64,000 nucleotides of DNA, taken from the NCBI RefSeq assembly GCF_035920445.1, contig NZ_CP109162.1:5828001-5892000 (forward strand), written 5' to 3'. The stretch's first letter is position 1. The number at the start of each line of letters is the position of its first letter. Under the pieces are notes generated by a model, which did not search any database, was not told the DNA's origin, and worked only from the letters and a program-made list of their open reading frames with translations. The DNA is from Nocardia sp. NBC_01730 (lineage in GTDB: Bacteria; Actinomycetota; Actinomycetes; Mycobacteriales; Mycobacteriaceae). This document shows positions 9,529-54,698 of the stretch, in pieces. The position numbers were made by a program, and so were the translations under genes.

Positions 9529-10368
9529 CTATGCCGGGGCGGACTCGAGGAACCAGTTGATGATCTCTTCGCCCGCGAGGATGCCGGTGGCGCGGGTGAT
9601 GGTGAGGTTAGGGTGAGTCCAGTTGAGTTGTTCCAGTTCACCGTGCCGGGGGCGGATGGCGAAGTCCGCGGAGCGCAGCATCTCGGCGTCGAGGGCGCCG
9701 TCACCCGCGGCGAAGGTTTTCGCGGCACCGGCGAGTTCACCGGTTTCCCAGAGACGGCGGCGCACCTCGGCAACCGCGCGACTCTTGCAGACAGCCAGCG
9801 GCATGGTGTAGATTTTGCGGCCCTGCTGGGACGCGGACCAGCCGCGTTGACGACACCAGGCATCCCAGTCGCTGAGGAAACCCGCAGGGACAGCCTTGGG
9901 TTTCACCACCAGATAGCAGAACAGGTGGTCGGCGAGGCGGAACTTGGTGACCCACGAATCATCGATGCGCGCACGCAGTTCCGCGCTCACCTCCGACAGC
10001 GCCGCGCCGCCCGCACGAACCTCGGCATCGACGTCGATGCGCCAGCGCACGTCGGGAACGCCGTCGACGAGGATGTTTCCTCCGTTGCTTGTGACCGCGT
10101 AACGCCAAGGCGCACCGGGCAATTGGATGCGCCCGAACTGTTTGATGGTGCGAGTGGTGGTGGGAATGACGGCGGCCGGTTCGGTCAGGGACTGCATCCG
10201 CAGCGCCGCCGCGGTGGTCATGAACGACAGCGGCGCCCCCTCGAGATGCTCCACACAGACCATCGGCACCTCACCGGCGGCGCTGAAGGCGTTGCGCGAG
10301 TAGATCATCGTGCGGTCCAGGTCGGTCGCGATCAGTGCCCGTCTTCGTGGTCTTCGGGCCAGGTTCAC
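9529..10368 (-). CDS. HAD-superfamily phosphatase of the Ter operon
   Basis: This 279-residue HAD hydrolase has motif I near the N-terminus (ALIATDLDRTMIYS), a cap region with TSNGGNILVDG, and the late motif FAAGDGALDAEML typical of Cof/sucrose-phosphatase-like HADs. The GTG start at 10368 overlaps the TGA stop of the preceding StiP fusion (GTGA), indicating translational coupling. HAD phosphatases recur in Ter-associated operons with PRTase and PELOTA proteins, where they are proposed to dephosphorylate a nucleotide- or sugar-phosphate intermediate. That role is inference from family context. Confidence 0.88.
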   Translation of the reverse strand: MNLARRPRRRALIATDLDRTMIYSRNAFSAAGEVPMVCVEHLEGAPLSFMTTAAALRMQSLTEPAAVIPTTTRTIKQFGRIQLPGAPWRYAVTSNGGNILVDGVPDVRWRIDVDAEVRAGGAALSEVSAELRARIDDSWVTKFRLADHLFCYLVVKPKAVPAGFLSDWDAWCRQRGWSASQQGRKIYTMPLAVCKSRAVAEVRRRLWETGELAGAAKTFAAGDGALDAEMLRSADFAIRPRHGELEQLNWTHPNLTITRATGILAGEEIINWFLESAPA

Positions 10369-12956
10369 TGCTGTACGTCCTTGATCAATCCCATGCATGA
10401 ATAGGCCAGGTCGGCGACGACCTCCACCGGAACGCCTCGGGCGGCGGCGAGCATTCTGATGTGCGCGTGCTCCGGCGCGTCCGCCTCTCGGACCAGCACC
10501 CGCCACGGTACCCGCCGCAGCAGCACCCTGGTGGTCTCGCCGACACCTGGTTTCACAAAGTTCACGCTCGCGATGCCGTACTGTGCGCGCACGTTCTCCA
10601 CCGATGCCCATCCGGCCCAAGTCGGCGTCCGGTCACTCGCGCGGAGCGCGGCGACTTCGGTGGCGACCCGGTCGCGGACCGCGTCGAAGGCGCCGCTCAC
10701 GGTGTCGAGCAGCCGCCCGGACACGTCGACGCCGATCAACTCCCGGTAGAACTTGGCGCCGTGGAAATCATCGGGACCGATCAGCGCGTCGTTCAGTACG
10801 GTGCGCGAAATCAGCCCGGACACAGTCGAATTCAGGCAGGCCGAGGCGATGAGGAAGTCGTCACGGGTGCCATAGGTGCGCACACAATGTCCCGGATCGG
10901 CCAGCACCGCCAGCTCGTCGTCGAACCGCGCACCACCGGCCGCGTGATACGCGTCGAGCGCTTCGGTGAGCTCGCGGGTGATCGCGCCCTTGCCGGTCCA
11001 TCCGTCCACGAACACGACCGAAGCCGGATCATGGTGCTCGGCCAAATAGTCCAGAGCCACCGCATCGATGCCCCGATCCCGCACGATCGACACCGCGTAG
11101 TGCGGCACCTCGATACTCTGCCGCCGCGACCGCAGCCAGCGGCGCATCAGAACGCCGACCGGTGTCCCGGCCCTGGCCAGCGACACCAGCACGATGTCCT
11201 CGCCGCGTTCGGCGACGACGAGTTCCGACACCGTCGCCACGGCGAGCGCGAGCCGCTCGGCGCTAGCCGCGAGCACCTCGTCGAACAGCATCCGATACGA
11301 CGCGTCCGGCTGGTACTCGATCGGCAGCGACTCGGCGTAATGGGCCTTCCCGGCCTGGATCTTCCGCTCCCGCTCGGCCACGTCGGCCTCGAGGTCGACA
11401 TCGGACAGATCCGTCAGCAACCAGCTGACCTCCTCGGCCGCGTAGGACCCGAACTCCGGACCGTGCAACGGCACAGCACGCCCCGCTTTCGACGTAGCGA
11501 CAGACTCGGACAGGTCGGCGACGCCTGACCGCCCGGCGTGCAGCTGCCGTGGGTCGGCCTCCGGCAGCACCGCGAGCAGCACATCCGCGCCGGAGGCGGT
11601 CAGCACATCGATCAAGCCGCCGTCCGCGACCAGTTCGGGGGTGTCCGCGGGGGAATCGATCACCAAGAGCAACACCGGCTCGCCTGAACCGAAATCCAAC
11701 TCTCCGGAGAAGGACTCGACATCGCGCGTATCGGTGCCCATCGATGCGGAATCGGCGGCCCGCGGTTCGGCGACAACGTCACCTGTCGCCCCCGCGAACC
11801 CGGGGGACCACCGCGCGTTGTACAGGTACCGCGGCTGCCCGGGGTCGGGCTCTGGAGCGTGGAACCGGAAGCCGCGGCGCAGCGGATATCCCGGCTCGTC
11901 CAGCACGTACGCGGGCGATCGAGTGGTCGTCTGGAATCGGGTCGGAGTCCCGGATTCGGCGAGTTCCGCCGCGATCCGCAGCGGCAGGTACATCAATTCC
12001 TCGTGCCCGAGCACGATGACCGGCCGCCCCGCGAAATCCGCCGCGAGCCAATCGCGCACCGTGGCGGCGGCGTCGGCGAGCGCCGATTCGAACGCCGTCG
12101 CGTCCGAGGAAAGGATGCCGTGCCTGCCTCCCTCCGGCACCGATCCCGGCCACGGAAGCATCCCGCGTACGAACACACCGGGCTGCGCGGCGACCGGATT
12201 GAGCTCCGGTTCGGGTAGCTCCGCGACCGCCTTCGGCAGACCGTCCGGCAAGACGGTGCGGCCGGACGCCAGGCAGACCGTGTCGATCGTGGCGCCGAGT
12301 TCGGCGGCGACAGTGTCGAAGACGGCGCGATCGGCCGCGGTGCGCATGTCGACCAGTGCGGCGAGCACGTAGTGCGCCCGGGGAGCGAACGCGTGCAGCG
12401 CGCGCACCGCGTCTATCGCCGTCGCGCCGGTGGAGATCTCGTCATCCACCAGCACCAGCGGCAGATCGTTGACGAAGATGCCTGCGGGCACCGGTTGCAG
12501 CAGGTGGGAGGTGGCGTGCGAATGCCCCTCCTCGAATCCGGTGAGCGTGTCCGCGGCGGCGACCGCACGGCGCGTCGAGTGCAGGTAGCAGTCCGCCCCG
12601 ATCCGTGCGGCGACGGTGTGCCCGAGTCCCGTCGCGGTTTCGGCGAATCCGAGCACTACCGCGCCGCGTTCGCCGAGTATGGCACGGACCAGATCGCCCA
12701 AGCGGTCGCCCGCGTCGAGCACCACGCGCGGATCGGTCGGCAGATGCTTGCCGAGGACCGTCGACACCAACAGATGCGCCCGCCGCGGATTGCACCGCAA
12801 ACCGGGCTGGATCAGCGCGGAAATCGACGACACGGCAGGTAGCGCCCGCTCCGATCCGGCATCGCCGTGCGACTGCTCGTGGTGGAGTTCGATACCTAAA
12901 GTTCTTGTGGCCCAAGGAATTCTATGCAAGCTGAGCTCGGCCGCGGTCTGGCTCAT
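10365..12956 (-). CDS. PRTase-TRSP-StiP-PELOTA fusion protein
   Basis: This 863-residue protein joins modules that are usually encoded separately. Residues about 1-260 are a phosphoribosyltransferase with the PRPP loop LVDDEISTGATAIDAV. Residues about 270-410 form a TRSP domain, including the eponymous motif in TTTRSPAYVL. Residues about 450-760 are the StiP (predicted cysteine protease/PRTase-like) region with FVDGWTGKGAI. The C-terminal ~90 residues are a PELOTA-type, L30e-like RNA-binding domain. It is coupled on both sides: ATGA with the lyase upstream and GTGA with the HAD gene downstream. Anantharaman, Iyer and Aravind proposed that such Ter-linked sets make a nucleoside-like stress metabolite; the activity here is unproven. 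Confidence 0.85.
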   Translation of the reverse strand: MSQTAAELSLHRIPWATRTLGIELHHEQSHGDAGSERALPAVSSISALIQPGLRCNPRRAHLLVSTVLGKHLPTDPRVVLDAGDRLGDLVRAILGERGAVVLGFAETATGLGHTVAARIGADCYLHSTRRAVAAADTLTGFEEGHSHATSHLLQPVPAGIFVNDLPLVLVDDEISTGATAIDAVRALHAFAPRAHYVLAALVDMRTAADRAVFDTVAAELGATIDTVCLASGRTVLPDGLPKAVAELPEPELNPVAAQPGVFVRGMLPWPGSVPEGGRHGILSSDATAFESALADAAATVRDWLAADFAGRPVIVLGHEELMYLPLRIAAELAESGTPTRFQTTTRSPAYVLDEPGYPLRRGFRFHAPEPDPGQPRYLYNARWSPGFAGATGDVVAEPRAADSASMGTDTRDVESFSGELDFGSGEPVLLLVIDSPADTPELVADGGLIDVLTASGADVLLAVLPEADPRQLHAGRSGVADLSESVATSKAGRAVPLHGPEFGSYAAEEVSWLLTDLSDVDLEADVAERERKIQAGKAHYAESLPIEYQPDASYRMLFDEVLAASAERLALAVATVSELVVAERGEDIVLVSLARAGTPVGVLMRRWLRSRRQSIEVPHYAVSIVRDRGIDAVALDYLAEHHDPASVVFVDGWTGKGAITRELTEALDAYHAAGGARFDDELAVLADPGHCVRTYGTRDDFLIASACLNSTVSGLISRTVLNDALIGPDDFHGAKFYRELIGVDVSGRLLDTVSGAFDAVRDRVATEVAALRASDRTPTWAGWASVENVRAQYGIASVNFVKPGVGETTRVLLRRVPWRVLVREADAPEHAHIRMLAAARGVPVEVVADLAYSCMGLIKDVQQ

Positions 12957-23429: not shown

Positions 23430-26027
23430 GTGACAGCCACTGATGACCGCCGCGAGCACACGAATTTTCCGCCCGAACCCCCCGGTGAAGACTTCGGCCG
23501 CCAGCCCCCGCACGACATGGCGGCCGAGCAGTCGGTCCTCGGGGGCATGCTCTTGAGCAAAGACGCGATCGCCGATGTCGTCGAGGTGATCCGCCCCGGC
23601 GATTTCTACCGTCCGGCTCATCAAGCCGTCTACGACACCATCCTCGATCTCTACGGCCGCGGTGAACCCGCCGACCCGGTGACCGTCGCCGCGGGCCTGG
23701 ACCGCCGCGGTGAGCTCAAGCGCATCGGCGGCGCGCCCTATCTGGTCACGCTCACTCAGACCGTGCCCACCGCCGCCAACGCTGGCTACTACGCCGAGAT
23801 CGTCGCCGAGAAGGCGATCCTGCGCCGTCTGGTCGAAGCGGGCACCCGCATCGTCCAGTACGGCTACGCGGGCGCCGACGGCCAGGACATCGCCGAGGTG
23901 GTCGATCGCGCCCAGGCCGAGGTCTACGAGGTCACCGAGCGCCGCACCACCGAGGACTTCCTCCCGCTCGAGGAACTCCTGCAACCGACGATGGACGAAA
24001 TCGACTCCATCGCCAGCCGCGGCGGCATCTCCCTCGGCGTTCCCACCGGCTTCACCGAACTCGACGAAGTCACCAACGGCCTCCATCCCGGCCAGATGAT
24101 CATCGTCGCGGCGCGACCCGGCGTAGGCAAAGCGCTTGCCCTCGACACCCGGCTGCCCACGCCCACCGGCTGGACCACCCTGGGTGAAGTCCGGGTCGGC
24201 GACGAATTGCTCGATGCCGAGGGCTTTCCCACTCGTGTGGTGGCAGCTACCGATGTCATGTCCGGACGCCCCTGCTACGAAGTCGAGTTCTCCGACGGCA
24301 GCGTGCTCGTCGCGGACGAACAGCACCAATGGCTCACCGAGACCAGGTCATCCCGGCGATCGAAGCGAACCTTCGCCCAGGTGCGGACCACCGGCGAGAT
24401 CGCGAGCACGCTGCGGTGCGAGACGGCCGATCGCAGGCTCAATCACTCGGTCACCAACGCCGGCCCGCTGCAGCTGCCCGCACGCACCTTGCCGGTGCCG
24501 CCTTACACACTGGGCGCTTGGCTCGGCGACAGAACATCCGCGGCCGCACAGCTGACGTGTGCCGATCCGGAGATTGTCGCGCGCATCGAAGCTGAGGGAA
24601 TCGTCGCCGTGCCATCGCCGTCGGCGCGGTCGCGCTATCAACTCCGGTTGCCTGCCGACGAGCCGATCACCGCTCGCGAGTGCGCGGTCTGTGGAAAGGA
24701 ATTCGTTCCTTTCACGAACGAGGTCCGCACCTGTGGGCGGTCCTGCGGCGGAAAGGCGCCGTTCCGCTCCACTTCGGTCCCCGCGCCATGCTGCCCGAAT
24801 TGCGGCGGGCGGTCGATCGGTCTGCGCCTGTGCGAGAAGTGCCGAAACACCGTCGGCAGCGTGCAGGCGCGTCTCCGGACGCTCGGCGTCCTCGGGAACA
24901 AGCACATCCCCATCGACTACCTGCGGGCGTCCGAACGGCAACGTCGTGCGCTCCTGGCAGGTCTGCTGGACACCGACGGCACCGTGACGCACAGCGGCTC
25001 GGTGCAGTTCTGCGCCACCAACTCACAACTCGTTCGGGACGTGCAGGAGCTGATCGTCAGCCTCGGCTACCGCTGCCACAGCTCCACCAGAAGCGTCCGC
25101 GGTCGGTCCGAAGAATCATCCACCGCGTATACCATCACGTTCGCTACCGACGACGAGGTATTCGGCCTGCATCGAAAGGTCGTCCTGCACAAAGAGCGGC
25201 GCGCGAGCCGCAGCACTGTGCGATGGAACGCACGGTTCGTCGTGGACGTGCGCCGGGTCGACAGCGTTCCGGTACGTTGCGTCGAAGTGGACAACGCCGA
25301 CCATCTGTATTTGGCCGGAAGCTCGATGATTCCCACGCACAATTCCACGCTGGGCATGGATTTCATGCGTAGTTGCTCGATCAAGCACGGACTCGCCAGT
25401 GTCATTTTCTCGCTGGAAATGAGCCGCACCGAGATCGTCATGCGCCTGCTCTCCGCCGAAGCGAAGATCAAGCTGGGCGATATGCGCTCCGGGCGAATGA
25501 GCGACGATGACTGGACCAAACTGGCGCGGAGGATGAGCGAGATCAGCGAAGCACCACTGTTCGTGGACGATTCGCCGAACCTCACCATGATGGAGATCCG
25601 CGCGAAGGCACGGCGACTCAAGCAACGCCACGATCTGAAGCTCGTTGTGGTGGACTACCTCCAGCTGATGACCTCCGGCAAAAAGGTCGAATCCCGCCAG
25701 CAGGAAGTCTCGGACTTCTCCCGAAACCTGAAGTTGCTGGCGAAGGAGCTCGAAGTCCCGGTGGTCGCGATCAGTCAGCTGAACCGTGGTCCCGAACAGC
25801 GAACCGACAAGCGCCCCATGGTGTCCGATTTGCGCGAGTCCGGCTCGCTGGAACAAGATGCCGACATGGTCATCCTGTTGCACCGCCCCGACGCTTTCGA
25901 GCGCGATGACCCGCGTGGCGGTGAAGCCGACCTGATTCTCGGCAAGCATCGTAACGGCCCGACAGCGACGATCACCGTCGCACACCAGCTGCACCTCTCG
26001 CGGTTCGTGGATATGGCTCGCGGCTGA
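23430..26027 (+). CDS. dnaB: Replicative DNA helicase DnaB, interrupted by an intein
   Basis: This 865-codon frame starts with GTG at 23430, the start matching the extein N-terminus (TATDDRREHTNFPPEPPGED). Extein parts total 461 residues, the normal DnaB length. They comprise the N-terminal primase-interacting domain (AAEQSVLGGMLLSKDAIADV) and, after splicing, the RecA-like hexameric helicase core with a Walker A loop (GVGK joined to STLG), SLEMSRTEIVMRLLS, a Walker B VVVDYLQLM, and QLNRGPEQR. The intein occupies 24132-25343. Without splicing the ATPase site would be destroyed. It follows rplI after a terminator and a DnaA-box-rich region. A GC hairpin at 26204-26220 may terminate it. Confidence 0.97.
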   Translation: MTATDDRREHTNFPPEPPGEDFGRQPPHDMAAEQSVLGGMLLSKDAIADVVEVIRPGDFYRPAHQAVYDTILDLYGRGEPADPVTVAAGLDRRGELKRIGGAPYLVTLTQTVPTAANAGYYAEIVAEKAILRRLVEAGTRIVQYGYAGADGQDIAEVVDRAQAEVYEVTERRTTEDFLPLEELLQPTMDEIDSIASRGGISLGVPTGFTELDEVTNGLHPGQMIIVAARPGVGKALALDTRLPTPTGWTTLGEVRVGDELLDAEGFPTRVVAATDVMSGRPCYEVEFSDGSVLVADEQHQWLTETRSSRRSKRTFAQVRTTGEIASTLRCETADRRLNHSVTNAGPLQLPARTLPVPPYTLGAWLGDRTSAAAQLTCADPEIVARIEAEGIVAVPSPSARSRYQLRLPADEPITARECAVCGKEFVPFTNEVRTCGRSCGGKAPFRSTSVPAPCCPNCGGRSIGLRLCEKCRNTVGSVQARLRTLGVLGNKHIPIDYLRASERQRRALLAGLLDTDGTVTHSGSVQFCATNSQLVRDVQELIVSLGYRCHSSTRSVRGRSEESSTAYTITFATDDEVFGLHRKVVLHKERRASRSTVRWNARFVVDVRRVDSVPVRCVEVDNADHLYLAGSSMIPTHNSTLGMDFMRSCSIKHGLASVIFSLEMSRTEIVMRLLSAEAKIKLGDMRSGRMSDDDWTKLARRMSEISEAPLFVDDSPNLTMMEIRAKARRLKQRHDLKLVVVDYLQLMTSGKKVESRQQEVSDFSRNLKLLAKELEVPVVAISQLNRGPEQRTDKRPMVSDLRESGSLEQDADMVILLHRPDAFERDDPRGGEADLILGKHRNGPTATITVAHQLHLSRFVDMARG
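24132..25343 (+). mobile_element. Class 3 intein with LAGLIDADG endonuclease and cysteine-rich insert, in DnaB P-loop
   Basis: This 404-residue intein begins ALALDTRLPTPTGWTTLGEV and ends AGSSMIPTHN, followed by Ser as the +1 residue. It lacks an N-terminal Cys/Ser nucleophile (Ala1). It has instead the class 3 WCT set: Trp after the block B His (ADEQHQWL), Cys at block F position 4 (PVRCVEVDN), and Thr before the terminal His-Asn (PTHN). An endonuclease motif LAGLLDTDG lies at about residue 275-283. Between block B and the endonuclease is a cluster of four CxxC-like pairs (ECAVC, TCGRSC, CCPNC, CEKC), probably two zinc ribbons. Insertion is between Lys and Ser of the Walker A motif. Confidence 0.92.
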
Positions 26028-47572: not shown

Positions 47573-47869
47573 ATGCGGCCCAGTCTGCCGGACGGGCGTA
47601 GTGGTGCGACGGAAAAAGACGGTTCGCTCGGCTGTCGCCGACGCACCGCGCTGACCTGTACCACCGTCTCGGCCGTCGCTGACCAACTCGGCGTCGACGC
47701 CGCGATGGTGTCGACGAATTCGCCCTTCACCGATCTCGGCCTGAGCTCCACCCAGCTGGCCAGGCTGACCGCCCATCTCGAAGACGCCATGGGAGTGGAG
47801 GTTCCACTGACCGCGATCTACGACCATCCGGACATCGAACAGCTTGTCGAGTATCTCGCGATGCGATGA
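47573..47869 (+). CDS. Acyl carrier protein of the FAAL-PKS operon
   Basis: This 98-residue protein has a C-terminal carrier fold. The phosphopantetheine site is in FTDLGLSSTQLARLTAHLED (first Ser of the SS pair), followed by PLTAIYDHPDIEQLVEYLAM. A ~25-residue N-terminal extension rich in basic residues precedes it. GGGAGGACGCG precedes ATG 47573. The TGA stop overlaps the PKS ATG (ATGA). A free-standing ACP before a FAAL-dependent PKS is expected to receive the fatty acyl chain from the FAAL and pass it to the ketosynthase. Confidence 0.93.
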   Translation: MRPSLPDGRSGATEKDGSLGCRRRTALTCTTVSAVADQLGVDAAMVSTNSPFTDLGLSSTQLARLTAHLEDAMGVEVPLTAIYDHPDIEQLVEYLAMR

Positions 47870-50800
47870 GCACCGCGACCTCTGATTCCGCCGGCCCGCA
47901 TCCGCCCGTCTCCATCATCGGCATCGGCTGTCGAGTGCCAGGAGCGGCGCGTGTCACCGACTTCTGGCGGCTGCTACTCGACGGCCACGACGCCACCACC
48001 CCACCGCCGGCCGGGCGACGCGGCCACCGGCACGGCGGCTACCTCGATGATGTCGAGTCGTTCGACAACGACTGGTTCGCCATCTCCGATCGGGAGAGCG
48101 CCGTGATGGATCCGCAGCAGCGGCTCGCGATGGAGGTCGCGGTGGAGGCACTCGATGACGCCGGGATCGGTTACCGTGCACGGGGTTCCGGCGCGGCGGT
48201 GGTGTTCGGGGCATCCGGTTACGACCACGGCATCGCTGTGCTCGGCCGGGCGGGCCACGACGCACCGTATGCGGTCACCGGTTCCGCGCTCAGCATCATC
48301 GCCAACCGGTTGTCCTATGTGCTCGATCTGCACGGGCCGAGCCTGGTGCTCGACAGTGCCTGCTCGTCCTCGCTCGCCGCGGTAGACCTCGCGGTCCGAC
48401 TGCTCGCCGACGGCACGGTACCCTTCGCGATCGTCGGCGGCGTCAATCTCGTACTGCTGGAGCACACCTCGAACTACCTCGCCGAAAGCGGTTTTCTGGC
48501 GGCGGGCGGCCGGGCAGCACCGTTCGACGCCGCTGCCGACGGCTACACCCGCGGCGACGGCTGCGCGGTGGTGATCCTGCAGCGCACCGCGGACGCGCTG
48601 CGCGAGGGCAACCGGGTGTACGCGGAGATCGTCGGCACGGCCGTCGGATCGGACGGACGCTCGAACGGCCTGTACGCGCCGAACGGCCGCGCGCAGCAGG
48701 AGACGCTGCGCACCGCTTGGTCACGCGCCGGACTCGCACCGCGCAGTGCCCACTACATCGAATGCCACGGCACCGGAACAGCTTTGGGCGATGCGGTGGA
48801 GGTCGGCGCGCTCGCCGAGGTGCTCGGCGGCGATGCAGGAGATCCGATCTGGATCGGATCGGTGAAATCCAACATAGGGCATCTCGAGGCCGCCGCCGGG
48901 GTCACCGGAATGGTGAAGACCGCGCTGTCCATCTACCACGGGGTGATCGCACCGACGATCCATTTCCGGACCGAGCACCCGCTGCTGAAACTGGCCGAGC
49001 GTGGACTGCGGGTGCCGACCGAACCGGTGGACTGGACCGACGTACCCGTAGCCGAGCGCGCTGCGGGCGTCAGCTCGTTCGGATTCGGCGGCACGAACGC
49101 GCACGTCGTGCTGCGCGGGCTCGAGGCGGTGCGGCCCAACCGTGGCGACCAGCCGCCGGTGCTGATCCCGCTGACCGCCCGGGACGACGCGGAGTTGCGT
49201 GAGCGCGCACTGCGGCTGGCAGATGAGCTGGACGCGGACACCACCGTTGGTCCGGCATTGTGCGATTTCGCCTCGGCCACAGCGCGATTGCTTCCGGAGT
49301 CGACCCGTGCCGCCGTGCTGGTGAGCGACCGCCGCGATGCGGCGGATCGGCTGCGCGCCGTCGGCCGCGGCGACGCCGATGCGGCGCTCGGTCCCGTGCC
49401 GAACCGCCGCCGCGGCGGCGTGCTCTTCTTGTTCTCCGGGCAGGGCAGCCAGCATCCGAAAATGGGCCGATCACTGGCGGCAAGGTATCCGGTGTTCGCC
49501 GGCGCACTCGCCGACGCCGCCGATGCCATCGTCGCGGCGGGCGGACCACGAATCTGGACTCCGCGGTACGGCTTCGCGCTCGCACCGTCGGGCGCCGCAG
49601 GCGCGCATGCCACCGATCTGGTGCACCCCGCCCTCTTCGCGTTTCAGGTTGCGCTGGCGAAACTGCTGGCGGCGTGGGGAATTCGGCCGGACGCGGTCGT
49701 CGGACACAGTCTCGGCGAGATCGCGGGTGCGGTCGTCAGCGGCGCATTGTCCCTCGCCGATGCGGCACGTGTCGTGGTGCTGCGCAGCGCGGCCCTGGCG
49801 CACCTGGACGGCCACGGCGCGATGGCGGTGCTGGAGGTGGGCCCGGATGAGGCGGCGAAACTGGTCGAGCCGATGCACACAGAGGTTGGCATCGCGGCGG
49901 TCAACGGCCCCCGGTCGGTGGTCGTCTCCGGCACACCACGCTATATCGACATCTTGGTGCGACGGGCCAAGCGCCGCAATATGTTCGCGCGCACTATCGC
50001 GGTCGACTTCGCCGCGCACAGTCCGCAGGTCGCCGCCGTGCTCCCATCGTTCGTCGCGGCAATGAGTGAACTCACCCCGCTGGCACCGCGCGTCCCGGTG
50101 TACTCCACCGCCCGGCGCGGCGAGAAGATCACCGGCGCGGTCATGGACCGCGACTACTGGGCCGACAATGTCGTCGGCACGGTGGAGCTCGCCGCCGCGA
50201 TGGAACGCGCGGCCGCGGACGGGATCTCGACCGTACTCGAAGTCGCTCCGCATCCGGTGCTGATCTCCGCACTGCGGGAGTATCCGGACTTTCGCGATGC
50301 CGCGCACCCCGCGGCGCTCCGCGAGGACGAGGCCGGCGGGTTCCTCACCTGTCTGGCGCGGCTGTACCTGGAGGGACGGCCGGTCGACTGGTCGGCGCTC
50401 GGCCCTTTCGCCGTGCCGTCGCCACGACAGTGGCGCAAGCGGCGGTTTCCCCTTCTGGTCTCGATGACCCCACACGCGAAAACGGCCGAAACCGTTTTCG
50501 CCGCCGAGGATCTCACCGATCACATGGTGCAGGGCCTCGCCGCGGTACCCGCCGTGTTCTGGCTGCGCAGGCTGCTGCGCCTGGCCCGCGAGACGGCCGC
50601 GGCGGCCACGCTCGTCGACTTCGTCGTGCACGAGCGGACCGATCCGAGCGCACTGCCCGAGGTCACCTATCGTGGCGGCGGAGCAGACGCAAGCGTACGG
50701 GCGGAGGTCACAGGCACCGGAACGCTGGCTTCGGCCCGGCCCGCCGGTGACCCCACACCCGCGGATATCGTCGCATGGATGCGGGTGGTGGACGCAAATC

Positions 50801-52965
50801 GGGCCGCCCGGCACCGGATGCGAGTCATCGCCACCGGCTCCTTCTACGAAGAACTGCGCCGTAGACAGCTGGAGTACGGTCCGCGTTTCCGTGCACTGCG
50901 CGGCATCGCGGCGGGCAGCGAGCGGGCCATCGGTCTGCTCGACGCCGCCGAATTGCTCAACACCGCGACTCTGGACGCTTGTCTGCAGCTGCTCGCCGCC
51001 GTGGTGGTCGATGAGCTGCCCGCCGCGGCGGTCCCGCTGCCGATCGGCGTGGACTCCGCCTGGCTGTCGAGCGAACCGAATCGCGTTGTGCTCGAGGTGC
51101 ACGCGCTGATCCTGGAGCGGACCGGAACCGGACTGGTCGGCGACGTCATCGGCACCGACCAATACGGCGTTCCCTGCCTCGCCTTCTCCGGCGTGCGCAT
51201 CCGTTACACGGACCCCGGCACCACGGAGGGTGTCGGCACGCAATGGGAAACGCGCGACGAGCGGCCCGCGCCGTTCCGGCAGGAAACGTGGGAGCCGTGC
51301 GATCCGGAGTCGCTCGGGCTCGGCGCGGCGCGCGAGGTTCTCGCGCAGCGTGCGTTGGTGATCGGCGCCTCCGACCTCGCGGTCCGGCTGGCCAGGGCGC
51401 TGGACGCTGACATGCCGACCGAGCGGATCGCACGTGAACCCGACGCAGCGATGGCGATCGCCACCGCCGTGCTGACCGGCCGTGGTGGCGCCGCTCCCAC
51501 CGCGGTGGTGGTGGTCTGGCCGCCGGATGCCGAGGCGACCGAACCGATAGGCGCCGCCACGTCGGTCGGACGGGTACTCGATCTGCTACAGCGTGTCCAT
51601 TCCGAGGACGGGACAGCATCCGTGACGATCGTGCTGCCGGACCCCGGCGGCACCCGCACACTGCCCGACGAAGCCCGCTCGCGAGCGGCGGTCGCACCGG
51701 CGGCGATCGCGGGCCTGGTGCGTTCGTTGCAGCTCGAGACGGGCCGGGCGGTACGCCTGGTCTGGGCGGATGCCGACACGAGAAATTTGCCGCCGCTGTG
51801 CCGCCTGGTGACTGCCGGGGACCTGGCGATTCCCGACGAACTGCGTCTGCACTCAGGTGATGTCGCCGTTCGGCGCTTCACGCCCGCACGACCGCGCGCG
51901 CTGCCCGTCGCCGCCATCGACGCAGGCGGAACCTATGTCGTCATCGGCGGGCTTGGGTTGCTGGGCTCGGTCGCTGTGCGCTGGCTGCTCGATGCGGGAG
52001 CGCGAGACGTCGTGGTGCTGACGCGCGCGCCTCGCCCGGTGCCCGCGCTGCTCGACGGCCTGGAGGATCGCATCGTCGTAGTTCGCTGCGATGCCGCCGA
52101 CCCGAACGATCTGGCCAACGCGCTGCACGATATCCGCGAATGCGGCTCGACCATCCGTGGCGTCGTGCACGCCGCGGGCGCGCTGGAGGGTGCGGCGTTC
52201 GATACGGTCACGGCGGGCCAGCTGACCAGGATGCTCTCGCCCAAGGCGACCGCGGCGGACAATCTGATCGAGCTCACCGCAACCGATCCCACCGACTTCG
52301 TTCTGCTGTTCTCCTCGGCGGCCGGTGCACTCGGCGCCCCTGGTCAGGGCGCCTACGCCGCCGCGAACGCAGCCATGGACTCGTTGGCGTCGACCGCTCC
52401 GGGCCGGCGGATTCTCAGCATCGGCTGGGGCGTCTGGCATTCCGGTCTCGCCGCGGCCGCGGGCGGTGCGAGCCATCTGCGCCGGGCGGGCATCGCGGCG
52501 TTCGACGTGCGCCGCGGGATGACCGTGCTGTCCGAAGCCATGCGCTATGACGGCCCGTACCTGCTCGCGCTGGACTACGCCCCAACCGCCGACCTATCAC
52601 CGGTGGCACTCCGTCTGATGAATCTCCTTGCCCCGAGTGGAGATTCGATTCGGACGCGGAGTCAAGACGGCAGGACCGACTTCGAGCGGGCGCGGACAGC
52701 ACCGGACATCGCCGAACCACTGACCAGCACCATCCGCCGCGTCCTCGCGAGCACGCTGGATCTTCCCGCCGAGCACATCGACCCCGCCGCGGACTTCAAC
52801 GACCTCGGGCTGAGCTCGCTGCTCGCGATCGAGATGCGCCGCAACCTGGAAGCCCGGCTGCGCATTCGGATCTCCACCGCCGAGCTCTTCAAGCACCCAA
52901 CCATCACCGCCCTCGGCGCCGCCCTGCTGGATCGGTTCGCCGCGAACACCAGCGGGGCATCGTGA
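47866..52965 (+). CDS. Type I polyketide synthase, KS-AT-DH-KR-ACP
   Basis: This 1699-residue single-module PKS has these domains. KS (about 12-425): active Cys in LDSACSSSLA, His in ECHGTGTALGD and NIGHLEAAAG. AT (about 518-820): GHSLGEIAGA; the extender-selecting site reads FAAH. DH (about 860-1130): DHMVQGLAAVP and LDACLQ. KR (about 1350-1530): VIGGLGLLGS, LFSSAAGALG and GAYAAANA. ACP (about 1610-1699): DFNDLGLSSLLAIEMR. No ER or thioesterase is present. One extension round should add a two-carbon unit to an acyl starter, leaving an alpha,beta-unsaturated product. Start and stop codons overlap ACP and FAAL genes. Confidence 0.95.
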   Translation: MSTATSDSAGPHPPVSIIGIGCRVPGAARVTDFWRLLLDGHDATTPPPAGRRGHRHGGYLDDVESFDNDWFAISDRESAVMDPQQRLAMEVAVEALDDAGIGYRARGSGAAVVFGASGYDHGIAVLGRAGHDAPYAVTGSALSIIANRLSYVLDLHGPSLVLDSACSSSLAAVDLAVRLLADGTVPFAIVGGVNLVLLEHTSNYLAESGFLAAGGRAAPFDAAADGYTRGDGCAVVILQRTADALREGNRVYAEIVGTAVGSDGRSNGLYAPNGRAQQETLRTAWSRAGLAPRSAHYIECHGTGTALGDAVEVGALAEVLGGDAGDPIWIGSVKSNIGHLEAAAGVTGMVKTALSIYHGVIAPTIHFRTEHPLLKLAERGLRVPTEPVDWTDVPVAERAAGVSSFGFGGTNAHVVLRGLEAVRPNRGDQPPVLIPLTARDDAELRERALRLADELDADTTVGPALCDFASATARLLPESTRAAVLVSDRRDAADRLRAVGRGDADAALGPVPNRRRGGVLFLFSGQGSQHPKMGRSLAARYPVFAGALADAADAIVAAGGPRIWTPRYGFALAPSGAAGAHATDLVHPALFAFQVALAKLLAAWGIRPDAVVGHSLGEIAGAVVSGALSLADAARVVVLRSAALAHLDGHGAMAVLEVGPDEAAKLVEPMHTEVGIAAVNGPRSVVVSGTPRYIDILVRRAKRRNMFARTIAVDFAAHSPQVAAVLPSFVAAMSELTPLAPRVPVYSTARRGEKITGAVMDRDYWADNVVGTVELAAAMERAAADGISTVLEVAPHPVLISALREYPDFRDAAHPAALREDEAGGFLTCLARLYLEGRPVDWSALGPFAVPSPRQWRKRRFPLLVSMTPHAKTAETVFAAEDLTDHMVQGLAAVPAVFWLRRLLRLARETAAAATLVDFVVHERTDPSALPEVTYRGGGADASVRAEVTGTGTLASARPAGDPTPADIVAWMRVVDANRAARHRMRVIATGSFYEELRRRQLEYGPRFRALRGIAAGSERAIGLLDAAELLNTATLDACLQLLAAVVVDELPAAAVPLPIGVDSAWLSSEPNRVVLEVHALILERTGTGLVGDVIGTDQYGVPCLAFSGVRIRYTDPGTTEGVGTQWETRDERPAPFRQETWEPCDPESLGLGAAREVLAQRALVIGASDLAVRLARALDADMPTERIAREPDAAMAIATAVLTGRGGAAPTAVVVVWPPDAEATEPIGAATSVGRVLDLLQRVHSEDGTASVTIVLPDPGGTRTLPDEARSRAAVAPAAIAGLVRSLQLETGRAVRLVWADADTRNLPPLCRLVTAGDLAIPDELRLHSGDVAVRRFTPARPRALPVAAIDAGGTYVVIGGLGLLGSVAVRWLLDAGARDVVVLTRAPRPVPALLDGLEDRIVVVRCDAADPNDLANALHDIRECGSTIRGVVHAAGALEGAAFDTVTAGQLTRMLSPKATAADNLIELTATDPTDFVLLFSSAAGALGAPGQGAYAAANAAMDSLASTAPGRRILSIGWGVWHSGLAAAAGGASHLRRAGIAAFDVRRGMTVLSEAMRYDGPYLLALDYAPTADLSPVALRLMNLLAPSGDSIRTRSQDGRTDFERARTAPDIAEPLTSTIRRVLASTLDLPAEHIDPAADFNDLGLSSLLAIEMRRNLEARLRIRISTAELFKHPTITALGAALLDRFAANTSGAS

Positions 52966-54698
52966 CCGCGACCGACTCGCCTCTCAGCAACATCCTCGCG
53001 ACCCGCGTGGCCGAATGGGCCGCGGCCCGGCCGGACGAAGACGCCTTCACCGAACTGCGCTTCCGCATGCAGGAACATGTGCCGGTCACGCTGACCTACG
53101 CCAGTCTGCACGCCGCCGCGGGCACGCTCGCCGCACGCTTGCGGCAGGAGAGCGTGCCCGGCGACCGGGTGGCAATTCTCTGCGCGCACGGAATCGACTA
53201 CGCCGTCGCCTTTCTCGCCTGCCTGTACAGCAATCGCGTCGCGGTGCCGCTGTTTCCAGCCACGGGCGAACGCAATCGAGAGCGGCTGCAAGCGGTGCTC
53301 GCCGACACCCGGCCCGCGCTCACGCTGCTGTCGGCGCACGATGAAGTCAGCGCTCCGACGCTCGGGCAGGCAACCGGGCGCCTACTGGTGTTGCCACCGG
53401 ATGTGACCGTCTCGGTGGCGGATGCGGTTGAGCCGGTTATCGACCCGGTATGCGACGACCTCGCCTACCTGCAATACACCTCCGGTTCGACCAAATCCCC
53501 CACCGGGGTCCGCGTGACGCACGCGAATCTGGCGACGGCGCTCGTGCAGCTGCGGCACGCCTTGTCCGCAGCAAGGGACCGGCCGATCGTGACCTGGCTG
53601 CCGTTCTTTCACGACATGGGCCTGATCTTCGGCCTGTCCCTGCCGCTCTCGCTCGGCGTCCACGGCGTCACCCTGGCGCCCGCGGAGTTCGTCAAGCGCC
53701 CCATCCGCTGGCTGCGCGCGATCGGCGACTACCGCGCCGGCTTGACCGGCTGCCCCAGTTTCGGGCTGACACTGGCGGTTTCGGGCACTACGCCCGAGGA
53801 GCGGACCGGCCTCGACCTGTCCGGGCTTGCGATCCTGCTCAACGGCGCCGAGCCGGTCCGTGCCGACGCGCTGAACGAGTTCACCAGAATCTTCGGCCCG
53901 TACGGCTTCCGCCATCACGCGCACACCCCCGGCTTCGGCCTGGCCGAGGCCACCCTGACGGTCACCCTCTGCGACCAGCGGGACGAACCGGTGGGGCACT
54001 ACTTCGAGCGCGGCGCACTCGCCGAGGGGCGTGTTGTCGCGATGCCCACCAGCGACGCCGCCGAAATCCAGGACGGTGTGCCGCTCGTCGGCTGCGGCAC
54101 ACCCGCGGGACAGGCGGTGCGGGTGGTCGACCCGATCGCACGGACGGTGCTGCCACCGGGGCGAGTCGGCGAGATCTGGGTGATGGGCAGCAATGTGTGC
54201 GACGGCTATTTCGGCAGGCCCGACGCTACCGAGGAAACCTTCGGCGCCACCCTGGCCTGCGGCGGCGGCCGCTGGCTGCGCACCGGCGACCTCGGCTTCC
54301 AGCACGAGGGCCAGCTCTACCTCGCGGGACGCCGCAAGGACGTCATCGTGGTCGACGGGCGCAACCACTATCCCGCCGACATCGAGATGACCGTGGAGGC
54401 CTGCGCCCGGGAGATCAGGCCAGGCCACGTGACGGTGTTCGGACATGATGACGGTCGGCGCGAAGATCTGGTCGTGGTCGCCGAAATCACCACCGCGGTC
54501 GACACCGAGCCCGCCGAGCTCTTCGTGCTTGCACGTCGCATCCGCACCGCCGTCGCCACTACGCACGAGGTGATGCCGGGCGCGGTGATGCTGGTCGAGC
54601 CGGGTCGGATTCCCAAGACCAGCAGTGGAAAGCTACGCCGCGGCGAGTGCAGGGCCCGCTACCTCGCGGGCCGGCTTCGGCCGGTCGCGATGATCTGA
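52962..54698 (+). CDS. Fatty acyl-AMP ligase (FAAL)
   Basis: This 578-residue ANL-family ligase starts with GTG overlapping the PKS stop (GTGA). It has YLQYTSGSTKSPTGVRVTHA (P-loop), the FAAL-type WLPFFHDMGLIFGLSLPLSL, TPGFGLAEATLTVTL, WLRTGDLGFQHEGQLYLAG and RIPKTSSGKLRRGECRARYL. The divergence of its core motifs from FadD-type CoA ligases matches FAALs, which hand acyl-AMP directly to an ACP rather than CoA. It should activate a fatty acid for the free ACP at 47573. It is the last gene of the operon. Confidence 0.93.
   Translation: MTATDSPLSNILATRVAEWAAARPDEDAFTELRFRMQEHVPVTLTYASLHAAAGTLAARLRQESVPGDRVAILCAHGIDYAVAFLACLYSNRVAVPLFPATGERNRERLQAVLADTRPALTLLSAHDEVSAPTLGQATGRLLVLPPDVTVSVADAVEPVIDPVCDDLAYLQYTSGSTKSPTGVRVTHANLATALVQLRHALSAARDRPIVTWLPFFHDMGLIFGLSLPLSLGVHGVTLAPAEFVKRPIRWLRAIGDYRAGLTGCPSFGLTLAVSGTTPEERTGLDLSGLAILLNGAEPVRADALNEFTRIFGPYGFRHHAHTPGFGLAEATLTVTLCDQRDEPVGHYFERGALAEGRVVAMPTSDAAEIQDGVPLVGCGTPAGQAVRVVDPIARTVLPPGRVGEIWVMGSNVCDGYFGRPDATEETFGATLACGGGRWLRTGDLGFQHEGQLYLAGRRKDVIVVDGRNHYPADIEMTVEACAREIRPGHVTVFGHDDGRREDLVVVAEITTAVDTEPAELFVLARRIRTAVATTHEVMPGAVMLVEPGRIPKTSSGKLRRGECRARYLAGRLRPVAMI

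Follow-up and report, generated by a model that had tools for sequence, protein, structure and literature searches.

The dnaB gene at 23430–26027 (+) of the window, a 64,000-nucleotide stretch of the Nocardia sp. NBC_01730 genome (contig NZ_CP109162.1, positions 5,828,001 to 5,892,000; genome of 8.68 Mb in one contig), is interrupted in its P-loop by a class 3 intein at 24132–25343 (+). This intein is an endonuclease-bearing relative of the mini-intein DnaBi1 of M. smegmatis. It is probably a mobile element in which a module of eight cysteines, lodged in an exchangeable slot of the homing endonuclease, acts as a zinc-binding accessory element for DNA recognition.

The host gene forms one uninterrupted open reading frame of 865 amino acids with DnaB matches flanking the insert on both sides, and the closest named relatives among the matches listed, both proteins and contigs, are from Nocardia. 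The N-extein (23430–24131, +), delimited by the reading frame, the domain match and the reading of the junction, ends in ARPGVGK, the first part of the Walker A motif, while the C-extein (25344–26027, +) starts with STLGMDF, which supplies Ser+1 and the remainder of the motif. The 404-residue insert between them is free of stops, starting with ALALDT and ending with MIPTHN. The interruption of GVGK-ST between Lys and Ser, correctly read in an earlier note made from the letters of this DNA, is the hallmark of the DnaB-b (P-loop) intein allele, and because Walker A is split at this point the helicase motif would be complete only after splicing.

The assignment to class 3 made in the same note is likewise borne out by the complete signature. 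In the N-terminal splicing part (blocks A and B, residues 1–76, 24132–24359, +) these are Ala1 (codon 24132–24134) and the HQW triplet of His65 (codon 24324–24326) and Trp67 (codon 24330–24332), and in the C-terminal splicing part (blocks F and G, residues 361–404, 25212–25343, +), as placed by alignment of the splicing part, Cys383 (codon 25278–25280) in VRCVEV and the terminal Thr402-His403-Asn404, followed by Ser+1. Tori 2010 is said to be a study of the Bethlehem intein, to which the earlier note traced this Trp-Cys-Thr (WCT) signature. Position 1, devoid of a Cys, Ser or Thr nucleophile, is Ala in 120/120 sequences of an alignment of the best 120 of 7899 matches (69–100% identity, including the present copy as P0002). 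The splicing part aligns with the solved class 3 DnaB inteins 6BS8, 6RIX and 6RIY (E ~1e-42), which belong to the same family. A wider comparison drew on a search of 60 genomes and another of 298, which overlap in part and from which 118 loci were collected and 26 excluded (three unresolved, two duplicates and 21 in other host genes) to leave 92 DnaB P-loop inteins. The loci were hand-picked to span module-bearing, module-less and mini forms, such that the frequencies of these states are not population estimates. Cys48 (codon 24273–24275, +), W67, C383, T402 and N404 are found in 92/92 of these inteins, and H403 in 91, with one Arg.

The central part of the intein presents the features of a two-repeat LAGLIDADG endonuclease: it matches Pfam LAGLIDADG_3 (E 1.9e-6), and in fold comparison over the whole chain the intein matches PI-SceI best. 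The first motif, LGAWLGDR (residues 127–134, 24510–24533, +), retains Asp133 next to a modelled helix at 124–132, and the second, LAGLLDTDG (residues 275–283, 24954–24980, +), which contains Asp282, is found in 120/120 aligned sequences; D133 and D282 are presumably the catalytic acids of this family. Between the two lies the cysteine-rich module (residues ~160–241, 24609–24854, +), a stretch absent from module-less relatives, whose boundaries were set from locus L059, where residues 1–159 and 242–404 of the query are matched, and from loci like it. The first cysteine cluster (C184–C205, CAVC...CGRSC, 24681–24746, +) has the pattern C184-x2-C187-x13-C201-x3-C205 and the second (C221–C237, CPNC...CEKC, 24792–24842, +) the pattern C221-x2-C224-x9-C234-x2-C237. 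These two sets of four conserved cysteines, an arrangement expected of a zinc-ribbon or treble-clef module, comprise four pairs, three CxxC and one CxxxC, spanning 54 residues. The earlier note had recognized the four CxxC-like pairs, though it misplaced them ahead of the endonuclease: since the first LAGLIDADG motif precedes the cysteines and LAGLLDTDG follows them, the module is inside the endonuclease. What stands of the zinc-ribbon DNA-binding unit proposed there is therefore a probable metal-binding module between the motifs, not one attached ahead of them.

The eight-cysteine pattern is strongly conserved. C184, C187, C221, C224, C234 and C237 occur in 120/120 aligned sequences and C201 and C205 in 119/120 each, the single misses being in P0009 and P0097, and this retention in 119–120 of 120 sequences shows that the arrangement is not due to chance. 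Three further cysteines of the intein (143, 220 and 294) are not conserved in the same alignment. The full pattern recurs in 79/80 genome-contig loci (the best 80 of at least 486), with only L177 lacking the first Cys, and all eight cysteines are invariant in a 19-row alignment reaching down to 60% identity. The module had been thought unusual, which it is not: nearly all close full-length relatives listed have it, and both the 120-sequence alignment and the genome loci rule out a peculiarity of the present copy. Among 15 pairs of six copies, dN/dS was 0.06–0.23 for the module, 0.08–0.15 for the endonuclease outside it and 0.04–0.17 for the splicing part; the module is under constraint, slightly less so than the remaining parts of the intein.

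Matches outside the intein family are few. The lowest Pfam E-value for the cysteine-rich pieces (0.00035, GRXCR1-2_C, with a one-ribbon piece of L089) does not reach the family cut-off, a PDB sequence search with the module gave a weak best match to ribosomal L32 (E 0.12), and searching by fold with the module alone gave no clear assignment either. A search of 5.8 billion proteins with the module region (35 candidates of ~222–707 amino acids) yielded 22 matches including the present copy, all with DnaB or LAGLIDADG domains. The PHROG family phrog_1333 matches residues 157–241 (E 3.7e-7); in the Nocardia genome itself the intein covers profile positions 72–159, five other places match within positions 9–98 and one matches 15–138. 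The module alone has one match in annotated phages, to the C-terminal portion of a WhiB-family protein encoded by mycobacteriophage Juniper1 (L286:200-694; 35% identity, E 7e-3), whose tail carries two similar Cys clusters. No description of such a phage WhiB zinc finger was found in the open literature. Metal binding by the module, its contact with DNA and cleavage by the endonuclease are all predictions from the sequence.

Comparison of the 92 DnaB inteins shows that the module accompanies the intact endonuclease. Both clusters are present in 45 of them and one cluster in 10, while 26 are longer forms without an intact module and 11 are minis. Both catalytic Asp residues are retained in 52/55 inteins with the module, against 5/26 of the longer forms without it (Fisher p 7.6e-12, for rows that are related to one another). 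Phylogenetically independent pairs on the extein tree (n=9) comprised on average 5.5 concordant, 0.0 opposite and 3.5 showing no difference, with a median p of 0.031 in the sign test (range 0.016–0.25). The exceptions run in both directions: L052, L072 and L073 have the module without both Asps, and L059, L060, L067, L097 and L098 have both Asps without the module. The stretch of DnaB extein in L098 is identical to that of L089 and the inteins are very similar, yet the ribbon is missing from L098, which looks like a clean deletion. The two-cluster state changes at least 10 times on well-supported branches of the extein tree and 22 times on the best tree, a quick tree in which 39 of 84 inner branches are open. 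The module was gained or lost repeatedly, through loss or through homing, two routes that the count of changes does not separate. Because the splicing residues do not vary whether the module is present or absent, while the module accompanies intact catalytic Asps, it most likely serves the endonuclease and not splicing.

The same inter-repeat slot holds different contents in other class 3 inteins. In those of FtsK (L084–L088), where WCT is found in 5/5, it is occupied by a helix-turn-helix (of two pieces tested, one matched HTH_23 at E 1.5e-7 and the other at 0.036), and the slot is shorter in class 3 inteins of PhoH and of a putative dCTP deaminase, hosts named by reading their flanks by eye. 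One genus (code g15) contains both DnaB inteins of 471–473 amino acids with one ribbon (L089–L096, and L097, which lacks one ribbon Cys) and DnaB inteins of 508–509 amino acids with both clusters (L079–L082). WCT was present in 80/80 loci from viral contigs (L199–L278, the best 80 of at least 547), and the slot could be parsed in 71. It contains CxxC in 26/71, in 25 of them as CxxGH...CxxC, with a motif-to-motif distance of 133–157 amino acids, while in the 45/71 without CxxC this distance is 86–113 amino acids; there is no overlap between these lengths, as a discrete cassette would predict. In the viral intein L229 the two Cys clusters are spaced differently and fall outside the eight-Cys pattern. 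Slot content is thus exchanged among class 3 inteins. A second variable insert of ~100 amino acids directly after block B was also observed in FtsK L084–L088, in g15 DnaB L079–L083 and L089–L098 and in viral L229; it may be another accessory domain, and the three pieces tried gave no Pfam match.

Taken together, these observations suggest the following scheme. The splicing domain (residues 1 to ~110 and 361–404) would excise the intein: Cys383 would attack the bond preceding Ala1, the N-extein would move to Ser+1 and Asn404 would cyclise, rejoining GVGK-STLG. These steps have been published for the relative from M. smegmatis, where PMC6195587 and PMC7360933 give C118, the block F Cys of DnaBi1, as the initiating nucleophile, and are proposed here from identical residues. 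The LAGLIDADG homing endonuclease would cut intein-free dnaB P-loop alleles, and the eight-Cys module, with two zinc ions bound, most likely aids DNA recognition, without acting as a splicing switch. The slot would move between several states, namely short, a single ribbon, the CxxGH-CxxC cassette, the double four-Cys module and the helix-turn-helix. Once selection for homing ends, the module and the catalytic Asps would be lost, leaving mini-inteins such as DnaBi1 of M. smegmatis.

Other roles for the module can be envisaged. Zinc clusters are common structural elements, and the module might be a strut in which zinc stabilizes the linker between the LAGLIDADG halves without contacting DNA; its location in that linker suits such a role, which alone would explain why loss of the module coincides with decay of the endonuclease. 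We nevertheless consider this unlikely, as the FtsK inteins have in the same slot a helix-turn-helix, a fold that is usually DNA-binding, and the slot is short in the PhoH and dCTP deaminase-like hosts and in the 45 viral inteins despite the presence of both motifs, so that no strut is needed in general. A still less probable proposal is that the module senses metal or redox state to control the splicing of DnaB. An effect of metal or redox on splicing, which the earlier note proposed to look for, is indeed on record for DnaBi1: its splicing is blocked by zinc and oxidation, through the catalytic C118 and through Cys48, which pairs with it as a redox disulphide (PMC6195587, PMC7360933), and the two Cys of this switch, C48 and C383 here, are invariant in 92/92. 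The known switch, however, operates in a mini-intein without any module, and its control by zinc and redox acts through C118 and C48, not through any zinc module. Moreover, the splicing residues are kept in the 37/92 DnaB inteins that lack an intact module (with one Arg for His403), and on this ground the module was rejected as a splicing switch.

WhiB proteins contain an iron–sulphur cluster, and the sole annotated-phage match of the module is to part of such a protein, which raises the idea that the eight Cys hold iron–sulphur clusters in place of zinc and render the endonuclease redox-sensitive. We rate this the most improbable of the alternatives, because the matched phage part, read by eye, has its own CxxC and CSxxC clusters located after the WhiB-like part, and most of the sub-threshold matches that the module gave are zinc domains. 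A zinc-binding accessory element for DNA recognition remains the preferred interpretation of the module.

A separate question is the state of the present copy, which could be a decaying endonuclease that still splices, with its cutting already abolished by G134R and its module a relic. Residue 134, which adjoins the catalytic Asp133, is Gly in 117/120 aligned sequences, Ser in 1/120 and Arg in 2/120, namely the present copy (codon 24531–24533) and P0034, and the module carries R210P at a position where Arg is kept in 118/120. The frame, both Asps and all eight Cys are nonetheless intact (Asp133 is absent from three of the 120 aligned sequences), and in the five pairs involving this copy the endonuclease and the module have dN/dS values of 0.10–0.23. 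Its departures at conserved sites number two in the endonuclease (rank 18/120) and one in the module (rank 11/120), ties included. Decay is on balance doubtful, although it deserves more credence than any of the other roles proposed for the module.

The distribution of the intein in the genus of the host is the mosaic expected of homing gain, decay and loss. Of 36 genomes (the present one and 35 others), 19 have an uninterrupted dnaB P-loop; the intein is full in 10, a mini-intein in five and decayed in G021, and in G032 the contig is truncated. One genome with an empty P-loop (G026, counted among the 19) has a further, divergent DnaB-like gene whose mini-intein (L021) ends in TRN, not THN. 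Intein and extein distances are correlated (r 0.886 for 44 inteins, with the long-branched L083 left out), and the spread was therefore mostly among near relatives or vertical.

The nearest relatives of known structure, M. smegmatis DnaBi1 and M. chimaera DnaB1 (6BS8, 6OWN, 6RIX and 6RIY; the M. chimaera structure is treated in PMC7664689), are solved as chains of 139–146 amino acids. DnaBi1 is a mini-intein without an endonuclease (PMC6195587), unlike the intein described here, and zinc and redox act directly on its catalytic Cys (PMC7360933). The mycobacteriophage TerL inteins, which interrupt phage terminases, are class 3 relatives; among them Bethlehem TerL1-c groups with the mycobacterial DnaB-b inteins and has an endonuclease shown to be active, whereas the DnaB-b inteins studied there lack endonucleases (PMC5050341). 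PMC5050341 contains 0 instances of the word ‘zinc’.

Closest in composition are yeast HO and WHO, in which a CxxC zinc domain is added to an intein-type LAGLIDADG endonuclease; cleavage by HO requires zinc and the zinc-finger residues, and the same 2020 eLife paper calls HO/WHO the only known intein–zinc finger fusions (PMC7282813). There the zinc domain is C-terminal, exteins are absent and HO is non-splicing (PMC7282813), and lack of a block G motif is a further mark of HO/WHO elements, while here the module is internal, between the LAGLIDADG repeats, and the exteins, the THN terminus of block G and all splicing residues are present. PI-SceI, PI-PfuI, PI-TkoII and TliVMA are inteins of class 1 splicing. 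They share with the present intein a splicing fold, a two-repeat LAGLIDADG endonuclease and a variable accessory domain, a helix-turn-helix in TliVMA and PI-TkoII, but their accessory domains sit where the splicing and endonuclease domains join and not between the repeats (PMC8966425).

A search of the open literature, with subscription papers mostly uncovered, found no account of a splicing intein that carries a zinc module. LAGLIDADG endonucleases are called the hardest targetable nucleases to re-engineer, and the function of accessory domains unclear, in PMC8966425. A slot filled by different modules would offer a ready site for studying added specificity, in which the function of an accessory domain would be directly testable. 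It may further be that the inter-repeat slot of class 3 inteins is a natural plug-in site, where different DNA-recognition modules extend endonuclease specificity for each host gene, so that these inteins would be meganucleases of natural modular design and the first cases of a splicing intein with a zinc module to be described, a generalization we regard as evenly poised between acceptance and rejection. Inteins of the present type may also represent the ancestral, endonuclease-bearing form of the well-studied mycobacterial DnaB mini-inteins that sense redox state and zinc, and the idea of these mini-inteins as host regulators becomes testable against the mobile form.

Elsewhere in the window, a single frame of 863 amino acids at 10365–12956 (-) combines PRTase_2, TRSP, StiP and PELOTA_1 domains in a fused protein of stress-resistance type, and a polyketide synthase frame with KS, AT, DH, KR and ACP domains, followed by an AMP-binding enzyme, is found at 47866–54698 (+).
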